35,148 bases of DNA. It comes from Leptolyngbyaceae cyanobacterium T60_A2020_046 (lineage in GTDB: Bacteria > Cyanobacteriota > Cyanobacteriia > Phormidesmidales > Phormidesmidaceae). Shown here one piece after another: positions 25,765 to 31,342 of this stretch. Position 1 is the stretch's first letter. The number at the start of each line of letters is the position of its first letter. The DNA is taken from positions 1 through 35,148 of the forward strand of contig JACYME010000170.1 in NCBI GenBank assembly GCA_015272155.1. Direction: 5' to 3'. A program made the position numbers and the translations under genes. The notes under the pieces were generated by a model. The model saw nothing but the letters and a program-made list of their open reading frames with translations. It ran no database searches and was not told the DNA's origin.

Positions 25765-26354
25765 GGTAGTGCATTTTAGTAAAGGACAGTGGAAAAGATA
25801 GGGGCTTCCCTTTCTGCCAGCTTCTCTCTGACTCGGCGATTGTATTCATGGATGAACGTCCAGATTGCCCCGATGTGATTCTCTAGCTTCTTCGAGAAGG
25901 ATAGTGTCCTCCTCGCCAGCCGAGCAATCCGCTGCCTCAGGGTGTTGTTCAGTCTTTCGATGTAACTCGTCAAGCCACTGCCCTTGCCGGCAGCCCTATG
26001 CCGTTTACTCGGAATGACCTCGACATCAGCCTGCCAGTAGTCGGTGTAGACCTTGGCGCATGGTCGGTATACCGCCGGGATGGACTGCCATAAGGCGATC
26101 GCCGATTCCCTAGAACGGTCGCCAATATGACAGTCGATGATCTCTCGGGTGTCTGCATCGATTGCTAACCAGACCCACTGCGGGTTGCCTTTGTTGGCGA
26201 CAAATGACCAGAGTTCATCCATCTGCACAGTTAGCTTGCCTTTGGCCTTGGGGACGACGTCTGCCGTTTTGACGACCGCTGATGCCGCAAGGCGTTTCCT
26301 GCTCAGCACAGCAGCACACTGGCTCACAGATTTGTTCTCATCAGAGACTGGCCA
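25765..26354 (-). mobile_element. IS1-family element remnant
   Basis: The transposase frame ends at 25776 inside an inverted-repeat-like end, GGTAGTGCATTTTAGTAAAG (25765-25784). The opposite end is not found; the element runs into the gvpF stop codon at 26355 and lacks the N-terminal zinc-binding part of IS1-type transposases. I therefore read it as a one-ended remnant next to the gas-vesicle operon. Confidence 0.65.
25776..26327 (-). pseudogene. IS1-family transposase, 5'-truncated
   Basis: 183 codons from a GTG cover the IS1-type catalytic domain: LTVQMDELWSFVANKGNPQWVW (first Asp), KVYTDYWQADVEVIPSKRHR (second Asp), SYIERLNNTLRQRI (Glu) and SKKLENHIGAIWTFIHEYNR. The N-terminal Cys-rich zinc finger and helix-turn-helix usual in this family are missing. 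The frame is open upstream exactly back to the gvpF stop codon, in the same frame as gvpF. The catalytic residues are intact, but without the DNA-binding half it is unlikely to transpose. Confidence 0.75.
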
Positions 26355-27095
26355 CTACAAGTAATCAAGCTGAGCAAAGTTGTAGGGCGCGGTGAAATTG
26401 TTATACCGAATCCGCAACCGATCTTCAAACTGCTCATCCAGCGCCTCGATCACGGCGCTAAACTGAGGCTCCGAGTCCCACGGAATCAAAAAAGCCGCGT
26501 TATAAATCATCGCGTCCGTCATCGGGTCATTCTCAATGACCGCCGTCGCCAGTGGACTCAGCCCCACCCGAAAAGCATCCATCACCGCCTCCTTGCGTTG
26601 GGCAACCCCACGCTCAATCGCCTGCCCAATGGTGACAACCTCATCCATACTCAGCAGACGCCCTTCGAGGCGATCGCGCTGTTGCCGCAGCCCCTCATTT
26701 TCCGCCATCAGCTGATTCAGTTCATAGTCAGCCTGCCAAAGCACCTTCACACTTACCTCGCGCTGCCCTTCCAGCCGTGCAAACAACTGCTTTAGCCCTG
26801 CCCCGTGGGGCGTAATCAGGTCGCGGGTCACCCGCTCCCAAGTCTCGATCATCAGCCCAAACTGAAGCGGCAGCAGGGTGCGATAGCCCTTGTGCATAGC
26901 CGCCTCTAGTACCCGCTCATGCCCGAGGAGATGCTTGCGGCTAGCGAGATAACGCTCCTGCTGCGCAGCGGAATAAAGGAAGACAAAATCCTCGATCGCG
27001 TGGGCTTTGACCGCCTGATCGTCCAACCCCGTCACCACCAAATCAACGGGGCCAGGGGCCGGAAAAATGCCGTATAGATAGAGCAACTCAGCCAT
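26355..27095 (-). CDS. gvpF: gas vesicle protein GvpF/GvpL family
   Basis: A 246-residue protein of the GvpF/GvpL family, needed for gas-vesicle assembly and located at the gas-facing surface or nucleation complex in studied species. Diagnostic segments are LYLYGIFPAPGP (start), FVFLYSAAQQERYLASRKHLLGHERVLE, TLLPLQFGLMIETWE and the C-terminal NDPMTDAMIYNAAFLIPWDSEPQF..LRIRYNNFTAPYNFAQL. I chose Met at 27095 because family members begin just before LYLYGIF; 27113 is an alternative and neither has a good ribosome site. It follows gvpK by about 43 bp. Downstream the operon is interrupted by an IS1-family fragment. Confidence 0.93.
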   Translation of the reverse strand: MAELLYLYGIFPAPGPVDLVVTGLDDQAVKAHAIEDFVFLYSAAQQERYLASRKHLLGHERVLEAAMHKGYRTLLPLQFGLMIETWERVTRDLITPHGAGLKQLFARLEGQREVSVKVLWQADYELNQLMAENEGLRQQRDRLEGRLLSMDEVVTIGQAIERGVAQRKEAVMDAFRVGLSPLATAVIENDPMTDAMIYNAAFLIPWDSEPQFSAVIEALDEQFEDRLRIRYNNFTAPYNFAQLDYL

Positions 27096-27138
27096 CGGGA
27101 AAAGCAATCCCATTGCAGCAGAACGCTGTTAGCGTAGC

Positions 27139-27636
27139 TCAGTTCAACGGTTTCGAGGTTAATACCAGGCGCAACTTTGCTTGAATCAAGTTCAACTGGG
27201 CCAGCCCGAGATCCACATCCCCTTCCACCACAATGCCCGTATCCAACAAGCGATCGAGCAACTCCAGCAAACTTGGCTCCGCCGAAGTTTCCCCCGGATA
27301 GTAGCCCCCCTCGCGGGGCAATAGCGTCCCGATTTCACCCAAATCGAGATTGAGATCAGCGGGATCAACCTCAAAAATTTCGCACAGGCGCACAATTTCG
27401 GTTTCCAGCCTGCGGAGACTGTCAGCGGCGCGATCCAAGTCTTCCTCAGCGAGGCGACCCGCCTCCATCCGGCGAATCACCTGGGCCTCCATCAACTGGC
27501 GCACAAGCTCAACTACCGTAAGCAGCAGCGGAGCCAACCCCGCCTTAGAGGTTGACGCGGGCTGGGCAGGCAAGGGCAAATTAGAATGGGCGGTCGCGCG
27601 ATCGCGCTGGGGCAATGCAGGGTCAGATGAAGTCAT
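27139..27636 (-). CDS. gvpK: gas vesicle protein GvpK
   Basis: A 165-residue protein of the GvpK family, a minor component needed for gas-vesicle formation. After a low-complexity N-terminus (about 1-35) the conserved core runs LTVVELVRQLMEAQVIRRMEAGRLAEEDLDRAADSL. The C-terminal ends LLELLDRLLDTGIVVEGDVDLGLAQLNLIQAKLRLVLTS, the GvpA-like helix pair typical of GvpK and GvpJ. It begins 9 bp after a small upstream gene and precedes gvpF, so the four genes form an operon. Confidence 0.93.
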   Translation of the reverse strand: MTSSDPALPQRDRATAHSNLPLPAQPASTSKAGLAPLLLTVVELVRQLMEAQVIRRMEAGRLAEEDLDRAADSLRRLETEIVRLCEIFEVDPADLNLDLGEIGTLLPREGGYYPGETSAEPSLLELLDRLLDTGIVVEGDVDLGLAQLNLIQAKLRLVLTSKPLN

Positions 27637-27645
27637 GGCTTCAGG

Positions 27646-27825
27646 CTACCCGCTGCGCCGCTGATGCATCTCCGCTAGAAATGCTTTTTGATACTTCAGA
27701 AAAGCCGTATGCCATTCTCGAAACCGCCGCTCACCATCCTTGACCAACAGAGCGCGGTATTCTTCCGAAGAGAGGTAGCGTTGGGATTTGGGTTGGGAAT
27801 GCACAGCCTGGTGGTGATCGCTCAT
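27646..27825 (-). CDS. small unknown protein Y in the gas-vesicle operon
   Basis: 59 residues from the ATG at 27825. That ATG overlaps the upstream gene's stop codon in an ATGA arrangement, a sign of translational coupling. It is charged and helical, with EEYRALLVKDGERRFREWHT and the tail FLKYQKAFLAEMHQRR; the Phe-Leu/Ala-Phe-Leu-Ala pattern faintly recalls GvpC repeats. gvpK starts 9 bp after its stop codon. I do not recognise a family. A longer frame to 27954 exists but would overlap the upstream gene fully. Confidence 0.55.
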   Translation of the reverse strand: MSDHHQAVHSQPKSQRYLSSEEYRALLVKDGERRFREWHTAFLKYQKAFLAEMHQRRSG

Positions 27826-28016
27826 CGTCGCACCTGCCAAAGGCCATTCCGCCATTTGCGATGGGCATCTTGGGTCAAGACTTGGGCATAGCCCCACATC
27901 ATCCGCCCCTGATCCAAAATCATGCCTTGATTTGCCCGGTTTGCACTGCGGCACGACCGAAAGCTCGGAATCGTGCGACTGCTAGCAATATGCTTCATCG
28001 TCCGAACTGAAATCAT
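27822..28016 (-). CDS. small basic unknown protein X, first gene of the gas-vesicle operon
   Basis: 64 residues from an ATG preceded by GAGAAG (5-base spacing). It is rich in Arg and Ser at the start (SSRTIPSFRSCRSANRANQ), then has MILDQGRMMWGYAQVLTQDA and a Trp/Arg tail. No family is recognised. It ends in an ATGA overlap with the next gene. The coupling and the position directly before Y, gvpK and gvpF support a real gene and a link to gas vesicles, but the function is unknown. The two small genes could also be parts of one gene split by a frameshift. Confidence 0.5.
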   Translation of the reverse strand: MISVRTMKHIASSRTIPSFRSCRSANRANQGMILDQGRMMWGYAQVLTQDAHRKWRNGLWQVRR

Positions 28017-28141: not shown

Positions 28142-28174
28142 AGAAAAAATACCCTCCCCAAAACTTGAGGAGGG
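28142..28174 (-). terminator. Rho-independent terminator on the minus strand
   Basis: CCCTCC (28152-28157) and GGAGGG (28169-28174) form the stem. Reading the minus strand, the stem is followed by TATTTTTTCT, a strong T-run. It lies about 190 bp downstream of the short ORF at 28365-28451 and upstream of gene X, so it separates that transcript from the gas-vesicle operon. Confidence 0.8.
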
Positions 28175-28314
28175 CAACAAACTGAGCAGGATCTATCAAC
28201 AAACTTTCGAGGAATCGGAGCCGGAGCGATCGCAAGGCGCAGCATCAACGAAGCATGAAGCGACTCAGGAGACTAACCGCAGCGCAGCAAAAGACCCAAT
28301 GAGAACCACCGCCC

Positions 28315-28792: not shown

Positions 28793-29140
28793 ATGTCTTC
28801 CCTTCGCCCCCCGATCCGTATTCATCCCAAAATCAGCACCATGCCGCGTCAGCAGACAGAGGCGTCCCATTACCTCGATATTTATAAGCTGACGGTCGAG
28901 AAAAAGCGCTTGCAGCAGGAACTCACGGCCCTTGATCAACGGCGCGATCGCATTCAAGACCGCCTGACCACCCTGGAGCGTCAAATCACGGAGCTAGACC
29001 ACAACGCCCAGCGATTGCGGGAGTCTGGCTCTGATGCCGAGCCCCACAGCGTGGTCTATCAGCCGAGCCCGCGCTATGCGGCTGCACCCCATGCTGCATC
29101 ATCGCCGACGGATTTCAGCATGCTGACTCTGGATTATTAG
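28793..29140 (+). CDS. gvpV: gas vesicle protein, GvpV-like
   Basis: A 115-residue protein with a basic start (RPPIRIHPKISTMPRQQTEA), then YLDIYKLTVEKKRLQQELTALDQRRDRIQDRLTTLERQITELD, a clear coiled coil (about residues 27-75), and a low-complexity C-terminus. The STMPRxxTEAxxYLDIYKLxxEKxRLQQEL pattern matches what I recall of cyanobacterial GvpV, a minor gas-vesicle protein of unclear role. It is on the opposite strand to the gvpK-gvpF operon, about 0.8 kb away, and ends 15 bp from the convergent PPK1-like gene. Confidence 0.72.
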   Translation: MSSLRPPIRIHPKISTMPRQQTEASHYLDIYKLTVEKKRLQQELTALDQRRDRIQDRLTTLERQITELDHNAQRLRESGSDAEPHSVVYQPSPRYAAAPHAASSPTDFSMLTLDY

Positions 29141-29155: not shown

Positions 29156-31342
29156 TCAAGCCGATGGGTTTTGGGGCGTTGCCAACGGGGCGATCGCGGA
29201 CGTTGGCGACTTGGCCGCCTGCATGAGGTAATCGTGAACGGAGAACGCTGGAGTCTGTGCTGTCGGCACGCGGCGCATATAGTCCCCATTGGCCGCCAGT
29301 TGCCAACTGTCGCGGGTATCTGCCAGCCACAGGTGCAGCAGTTGAATCAGCGTCGCCTTCACCTGGGCGTCGTGAATGGGGGCTAAAACTTCCACCCGTT
29401 GGTCGAGGCCGCGCTGGGTCCAATCGACGCTGCCCATCCAGACTTGGGGATCGCCGCCATTCTCGACGTAAACGAGGCGGCTGTGCTCGACATAGCGGCC
29501 CAGCAGGCTGGTGACTTGGATGCGATCGCTGAGCCCTGGCACGCCAGGACGCAGGCAGCAGACGCCGCGCACCATCAGGTCAATCTGCACCCCCGCCTGG
29601 GAGGCTTGGTAGAGCACGTTGATGATATCGGGGTCGGCCAGGACGTTGAGCTTGGCGATGAGTCTGGCGGCTCGACCGGCTTTGGCATGGTCAACCTCGC
29701 GCTGAATCAGGGCGGTGAGCTGCGATCGCAACCCCCCTGGGGCCACCATCAAACAGCGATAGCGGCTAGGCCGTGAATAGCCCGTCAGGAAGTTGAACAG
29801 GTGGCTGAGGTCTGTGCTCAGGGCTGGGTGGCTGGTGAGCAAGCCCAAGTCGGCGTAGGGCTGGGGCCGATTGGGCAAATAGTCTCCCGTGCCGACGTAG
29901 GCATATTGCCGAATGCGTTTGCCTTCCCGACGCACCACGAGGGCCAAGTTGGTGTGGGTTTTGAGGCCAACGACCCCATACACAACGTGGGCTCCGGCTT
30001 TTTCGAGGCTGCGCGCCCAGTGAATGTTGGTTTCTTCGTCTAGGGCGGCAGTGAGCTCCACAAGGACGACGATTTGCTTACCCGCCTTGGCGGCATCCAT
30101 CAGCGATCGCACGATGGGCACATCCCCCGCCGTGCGATACAGCGTCACCTTGATCCCCAACACCGCTGGGTCTTGGGCTGCCCCTGCAATAAACTGTTCC
30201 ACCGTGGCGCTAAAGGAGTGATAGGGCAAATGCACCAGCAGGTCTTGAGTTTGCAACAGACCGAATAGGTTGAGTGGCTCGGGCGCAGCGGCAAACATCG
30301 GCTGGGCCATCACAGTGGGCACCAGGGCGGGGGGCAGGGCAGGCACCCAGGGCGGTTCGGCAAGGTCGGGGCGCGGCAGCATGGTGAGTTCCATCAGGTC
30401 GCGATAGCCGAGCCAGCCGGGGGTGCGATACAGGTCTGTGGTGGTCAGGCCCAGGCTATTCATCAGCCGCGATTGCAGCGCTGCTGGCATGTCTCGCGTC
30501 ACCTCAAGGCGTACGGCCTGCCCCTGGGAGTGGCGCTGCTGGAGGCTCTCTTGCACCCACTCGATTAAGGTGATCGCCGCTGACTCAAGGTCGTCAATGT
30601 CGATGCGATCAAGCTCGGCGCTGCGGGTTACCCGAAAGGGATAAATTCCCTGGATGGAAAATGCGGGAAGCAATGCCGAGACGTGGGCAGCAATGACCTG
30701 CTCTAGGGGAACGGCTTGCCAGCGATCGTGCGCGGCCCCAGCGTGAAGGGGTAAAAAGCGAGGCAGCGATCGCGGCACCTTGAGCCAGATCACCTGATCC
30801 GTGTGGTGATGGGAACCCGCGATCGCCAGATGCAAGCTCAGGTTAGAAAAATCAGGGCAATCTTCCCCCGCAGCCGTCACCAGCGGCGCAATCATCGGCG
30901 CGATCTCCGCCTCAAAGCGGCGTTGCAAGCCCACTCGCTGGGCATCCGTCAACTCCTGCACATCCAGCAAAGTCACCCCTGCCGCCGCCAATTGGGGCCG
31001 CAATTGACCTTTGAAATAAGCATTTTGACAATGCAGCAGCGGCACAATCGCCGATCGCACCTGTCGAATTTGCCGACTTGGGCTGAGGCCATCTGGGCTC
31101 AGCTCACCGCTGACAGACACCTGCGCCTGCTTCAGCGCCGCCATCCGCACCATGAAATACTCATCAAGCTGAACGCTGGCCTGGGCAAACCGACAGACCC
31201 GCTCCAGCAGTGGCAGCCGCCCTGCCATTAACTCATCCAGCATCCGGCGATTAAAGGTGATCCAGCTTAGTTCTCGATTGAAGTAGAAGGGGAGCGTACC
31301 AATCTGCACCGACGAAGCACGCAGATCAGAGATGGGCATCAC
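29156..31342 (-). CDS. polyphosphate kinase 1 homologue with altered active site
   Basis: 728 residues with the full PPK1 architecture: N-terminal FYFNRELSWITFNRRMLDE, middle domain with YPFRVTRSAELDRIDIDDLE, then the catalytic domains. PPK1 transfers the terminal phosphate of ATP to polyphosphate through a phosphohistidine. The two active-site histidines are kept: His463 in GLKTHTNLAL and His620 in RYVEHSR. Other positions differ from the usual family. KARFDEE is TAALDEE (430-437, catalytic Arg replaced by Ala433), the HxK lysine is Asn465, and GTGNYNPKTARLYTDLGL is GTGDYLPNRPQPYADLGL. The frame is intact. It may be a divergent paralogue with changed or lost activity rather than the main kinase, so I give no gene symbol. 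Confidence 0.9.
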   Translation of the reverse strand: MMPISDLRASSVQIGTLPFYFNRELSWITFNRRMLDELMAGRLPLLERVCRFAQASVQLDEYFMVRMAALKQAQVSVSGELSPDGLSPSRQIRQVRSAIVPLLHCQNAYFKGQLRPQLAAAGVTLLDVQELTDAQRVGLQRRFEAEIAPMIAPLVTAAGEDCPDFSNLSLHLAIAGSHHHTDQVIWLKVPRSLPRFLPLHAGAAHDRWQAVPLEQVIAAHVSALLPAFSIQGIYPFRVTRSAELDRIDIDDLESAAITLIEWVQESLQQRHSQGQAVRLEVTRDMPAALQSRLMNSLGLTTTDLYRTPGWLGYRDLMELTMLPRPDLAEPPWVPALPPALVPTVMAQPMFAAAPEPLNLFGLLQTQDLLVHLPYHSFSATVEQFIAGAAQDPAVLGIKVTLYRTAGDVPIVRSLMDAAKAGKQIVVLVELTAALDEETNIHWARSLEKAGAHVVYGVVGLKTHTNLALVVRREGKRIRQYAYVGTGDYLPNRPQPYADLGLLTSHPALSTDLSHLFNFLTGYSRPSRYRCLMVAPGGLRSQLTALIQREVDHAKAGRAARLIAKLNVLADPDIINVLYQASQAGVQIDLMVRGVCCLRPGVPGLSDRIQVTSLLGRYVEHSRLVYVENGGDPQVWMGSVDWTQRGLDQRVEVLAPIHDAQVKATLIQLLHLWLADTRDSWQLAANGDYMRRVPTAQTPAFSVHDYLMQAAKSPTSAIAPLATPQNPSA

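Follow-up and report, generated by a model that had tools for sequence, protein, structure and literature searches.

A 35,148-nt contig from the Leptolyngbyaceae cyanobacterium T60_A2020_046 (the window; contig C12 in a draft genome of 4.2 Mb and 250 contigs that is 99.9% complete) carries gvpK and gvpF behind two small ORFs, X and Y, and in front of an IS1-family remnant. This arrangement raises the questions of what X and Y are, and whether the gas-vesicle locus has lost genes. We find an ordinary, complete gas-vesicle set that includes gvpX (X), a known but uncharacterised gene, and Y, a conserved gene that is unnamed in the papers searched. Most probably, the window is one of three dispersed pieces of this set, with gvpV on the plus strand and the divergent gvpX(X)-Y-gvpK-gvpF unit on the minus strand, and Y serves as an accessory gas-vesicle protein. 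The features are listed in Table 1.

Table 1. Positions, strands and supporting evidence of the features around the gas-vesicle genes of the window.
Feature	Position	Strand	Evidence
X: gvpX-family gene, 64 aa	27822..28016	minus	family alignment, J-X-K slot, N-terminal GvpX match, dN/dS ~0.08
Y: unnamed gas-vesicle-associated helical protein, 59 aa	27646..27825	minus	family, gvpK co-occurrence, dN/dS ~0.06
gvpK (GvpK domain and C-terminal Gas_vesicle domain)	27139..27636	minus	PF05121 E 3.9e-32, PF00741 E 3.6e-14
gvpF	26355..27095	minus	NF052351 (NCBIfam GvpF-cyano equivalog) E 1.1e-110
gvpV, divergent from X	28793..29140	plus	37% identity over 115 columns to Microcystis GvpV, E 1e-22
5'-truncated IS1-family transposase remnant	25776..26327	minus	NF033558 positions 84-199/199
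terminator-like hairpin in X leader, 12 pairs and T run, putative	28150..28176	minus	
polyphosphate kinase gene, convergent after gvpV	29156-31342	minus	

The minus-strand ORFs agree with the preliminary description of the unit: the order is X, Y, gvpK, gvpF with all frames open, the stop codon of X and the start codon of Y overlap by 4 bases (ATGA), and 9 bp separate the end of Y from the ATG of gvpK (27636). The GvpK domain scores 110.6 bits against a cut-off of 25 and the GvpF model scores 368.9 bits against a cut-off of 350; the assignment of the unit to gas vesicles is borne out. The start of gvpF is likely at 27095 rather than at the ORF opening at 27113, because the related genome G392 begins the gene there. 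A further gene, gvpV, was missing from the earlier gene list and was found by BLASTP as a full-length match to GvpV of Microcystis, a protein also known from Anabaena PCC 7120 (alr2246). The window gvpV adjoins gvpX divergently, not gvpG and gvpW. In Microcystis, gvpG and gvpW flank the gene, which is on the opposite strand, and this agrees with PMC6362013 on that species. The leader of X contains a strong terminator-like hairpin followed by a T run, ~135 bp upstream of X, that could shield X from read-through or act as an attenuator of the operon. No comparable hairpin was found upstream of X in G392, and terminator-like sites are no more frequent in the region than in shuffles. A promoter scan of the leader returned no site, and an Rfam search returned nothing.

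The preliminary description correctly placed gvpA, gvpC, gvpN and gvpJ outside the window, which holds for gvpG as well, and a search of the genome located all five. The genes gvpA, gvpC, gvpN and gvpJ lie in that order on contig C217, with two Gas_vesicle domain matches there, and the same contig carries a convergent GvpF/L-family gene that fits gvpW; gvpG is intact on contig C190. Judged from the assembly, no expected gvp gene is missing, and the set is complete in three dispersed pieces (C12, C217 and C190). The locus had been called split or partly lost; it is split, but the suspected loss is contradicted by the presence of A, C, N, J, a W-like gene, G and V. The part of the set in the window looks functional. 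The dispersal is common to relatives. In G392 and G170, genomes of the same family, the pair A/J, the unit K-F and gvpG are likewise separate, with ~125 kb between A/J and gvpG on one contig of G392. G392 also retains ppk, gvpV and X-Y-K-F in a neighbourhood like that of the window; there, other genes separate gvpV from X.

These layouts bear directly on the IS1 remnant, which the preliminary description took as a scar marking the loss of gvpG. The remnant does follow gvpF and is indeed truncated at its 5' end, the first 83 model positions being absent, and no near-identical full IS1 copy occurs elsewhere in the genome. Because it starts 28 bp past gvpF, at the usual position of gvpG, an IS1 insertion could be imagined to have split the locus and removed gvpG and the genes downstream. 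We regard this history as very improbable. gvpG is intact on C190, and G392, G170 and others keep the gene groups apart without IS1, with no IS among the listed ORFs flanking gvpF in G392 and G170; the intact gvpG and the layout of these two genomes contradict IS1 as the cause of the split. Since relatives show the dispersal too, the remnant is not needed to explain it, and it is incidental to the operon.

X has no match in Pfam or NCBIfam. In a profile search, X occupies the gvpJ-gvpK slot in Leptolyngbya sp. PCC 6406 (G391), G419, G420, G286 and G060, and ahead of gvpK-gvpF in the window, G392 and G170; the X of the window precedes Y-gvpK, and gvpJ is on another contig. gvpX of Microcystis is described between gvpJ and gvpK in PMC6362013. 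In each of seven Microcystis species (including M. aeruginosa G097, G253 and G357), the ORF in this slot, whose product starts MIPVRTMKHIPQMREIP, is the best genome-wide match to the X profile (E ~1e-3). The match is weak and covers only ~38 N-terminal residues (E 2.5e-4 to 2e-3 in the locus sets, ~1e-3 per genome), and the C-terminus of X is unrelated to that of Microcystis GvpX. A similar short ORF occupies the J-K slot in the Oscillatoriales genome G262, of the same genus as Planktothrix rubescens G255. GvpX of M. aeruginosa (cluster A-C-N-J-X-K-F-G-V-W) shares with X the slot, the strand and, as a weak match, the N-terminus MI.[VI][RK]TMK.I...R.IP, but it has 107 aa compared with 64 aa for X, which has its own conserved C-terminal helix ending RKW...W, whereas the Microcystis tail resembles the C-terminus of GvpJ. 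AlphaFold models X with low confidence as mostly helical, with an N-terminal segment and a long C-terminal helix. We read X as a short member of the GvpX family, as its place in the J-K slot makes convincing what is a weak match by sequence alone. The earlier statement that X and Y match no Gvp protein thus fails for X and stands for Y, which belongs to an unnamed family.

In the ORF translations of three Microcystis loci (L063, L073 and L077), GvpX seems to combine an N-terminus of the X type with a duplicate of the GvpJ C-terminus, and a second, degraded copy of the GvpJ tail follows it between gvpJ and gvpK. Such a copied tail would explain the remark, in the review PMC11267810, that GvpX resembles GvpJ.

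In 14 loci with strong matches, Y immediately follows X on the same strand, and so it does in two more with very weak X matches; some of these loci may be close relatives of each other. Two architectures are observed: J-X-Y-K (Leptolyngbya PCC 6406, G419, G420 and G286) and N-X-Y (Iningainema, Rhizonema, Hassallia and Scytonema); the window and G392 have X-Y-K-F. A comparison of the window with G392 shows 6, 6 and 26 differences in X at first, second and third codon positions, respectively, and 7, 11 and 28 in Y. The dN/dS values, ~0.08 for X and ~0.06 for Y, are similar to that of gvpF, and they are rough ratios, with dS near saturation. X and Y are therefore not chance ORFs but real genes under purifying selection, because their order and place are kept in other genomes and their differences concentrate at third positions. 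The preliminary claim that they are real coupled genes is supported, and X and Y are present in the gvp clusters of relatives rather than confined to the window. Translation of the two would be coupled. It had also been considered that X and Y might be one frameshifted known gene or an untranslated spacer, as the 4-base overlap and the lack of a database family for either might suggest. The chance of this is negligible: elsewhere the two stand as separate ORFs whose conserved regions lie ~40-260 bp apart, G170 and G060 have X but no Y, Roseofilum and G131 have Y but no detected X, and both genes carry the third-position bias and low dN/dS. Nor do we claim that X and Y are paralogues, the motif comparison of YRQMLVRDGERRF with YAQVLTQEAHRQW giving p ~0.03 with column shuffles and 0.19 with block shuffles, and hhalign giving E 0.15.

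Y has no relative in Pfam, NCBIfam or the PDB; its matches to PDB sequences are chance-like, and its predicted fold matches nothing in the PDB, as expected for a lone helix. AlphaFold models a single helix over residues 20-58 with a pLDDT of ~95 (>90 over most of it), and the amphipathicity of this helix is not above that of shuffles (p 0.47). The passages on cyanobacterial gvp genes in the papers searched contain no name for Y. Y is present in Planktothrix genomes, and the part of PMC5259702 that lists Planktothrix gvp genes omits it. Of 386 cyanobacterial genomes searched with a Y profile, 22 have the gene, and every one of these belongs to the 56 that carry gvpK, including those in which Y lies far from the cluster (hypergeometric 6e-21 by species and 6e-8 by genus, uncorrected for deeper relatedness). 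A search of relatives yields further strong Y genomes, all seven with gvpK; three borderline matches (E ~0.05), two of them in genomes without gvpK, were left uncounted. When 84,980 bacterial and archaeal species genomes were scanned with one peptide pattern, 49 Y loci were found, all under cyanobacterial titles: Planktothrix, Pseudanabaena, Microcystis, Roseofilum, Leptolyngbya and the nostocalean Rhizonema, Hassallia, Iningainema and Scytonema. That Y belongs to gas-vesicle biology is our best-supported claim. Many gas-vesicle genomes of the Nostocaceae-like family f7 carry neither X nor Y, so the two are not universally required; the GvpC of some of these genomes is what we take to be the Anabaena flos-aquae type.

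The copy number of Y varies. Most genomes have one copy, Microcystis has two, and G320 has about six in an array beside gvpF/gvpW. The Microcystis ORF, for which no name was found, consists of two copies of the same helix and lies before gvpA, whereas the Y of the window lies between gvpX and gvpK. The G320 array (L150 4355-4924) includes a run of N, and its copy number is uncertain.

From the linkage, the start-stop overlap and the tandem copies, we infer that Y may take part in assembly with X, GvpK and GvpF. Our best reading is that Y would be an accessory assembly or shell factor acting with GvpX. X and Y, as small helical proteins produced alongside GvpK and GvpF, would enter the assembly complex responsible for nucleating or extending the GvpA shell; the conserved aromatic/arginine helix of Y, SE.YR..LV.DG.RRF.EW, might be its binding site, and where the copies are in tandem Y could bridge neighbouring subunits. 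More specifically, and tentatively, Y could be an undescribed structural or assembly component, a one-helix module that is tandem in some lineages and paired with GvpX, and that sets nucleation, width or strength; we give this version a little less than an even chance.

Two other readings of Y were weighed, and we consider each unlikely. Y might be a minimal GvpC-type protein whose helix, single or in tandem, is related to the GvpC repeats, binds the ribs and strengthens the shell. GvpC, the cyanobacterial shell protein with 33-residue repeats, is like Y helical, variable in repeat number and specific to gas vesicles; Y is predicted as a single long helix, its tandem copies number from 1 to ~6, and in the best ungapped phase of Y on the GvpC repeat 40 of 42 columns align, so that W/F-H and F-L-A are in register (p 0.04 with column and 0.005 with block shuffles). 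However, hhalign of Y against GvpC finds nothing (E 0.24 over one column), the top 100 of 17,028 non-Y frames ranked by the Y profile include 1 of 63 GvpC frames, about as many as expected by chance, and the Y repeat is ~36-46 residues long, not 33. Moreover, gvpC exists as a gene of its own in the genome of the window, as in many others that have Y. Y as a GvpC repeat was rejected on these grounds, since neither hhalign nor profile ranking supports homology beyond the weak ungapped register match. The other reading, to which we attach a similarly low probability, makes Y a regulator or a cell-cycle or differentiation factor that is co-inherited with buoyancy and is not a vesicle component. 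In Planktothrix, Pseudanabaena and others Y is found at a distance from the gvp cluster, which would fit such a role, as would its small, charged and helical character, but Y is tightly and repeatedly linked with gvpX, gvpJ or gvpK in many lineages, Pfam and NCBIfam recognise no DNA-binding domain in it, and tandem repeats are unusual in regulators.

Gas vesicles serve as a model organelle and in ultrasound imaging, and heterologous gas-vesicle clusters are built from the gvp genes that published inventories list. The cyanobacterial inventories in the papers searched do not include Y, an accessory gene that is confined to gas-vesicle genomes, lies beside the uncharacterised gvpX and is directly testable.

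Some further features were observed in the gas-vesicle loci. On C217, the C-termini of GvpC and GvpN (L004 10417-12527) look alike and might have a winged-helix domain in common (LTEIE..L.INRFQAVDALRSLI...); GvpN matches PF01978 TrmB (E 9.5e-6) and is also matched by the GvpC profile. The same contig contains a 616-aa ORF of unknown family (L004 13675-15525, minus strand) that overlaps the start of the gvpW-like gene and has no match in the other gvp loci examined. P. rubescens G255 (L060) has three tandem copies of gvpK exactly 2020 bp apart, two of which are shown with gvpF, and this triplication is either a recent amplification or an assembly effect.
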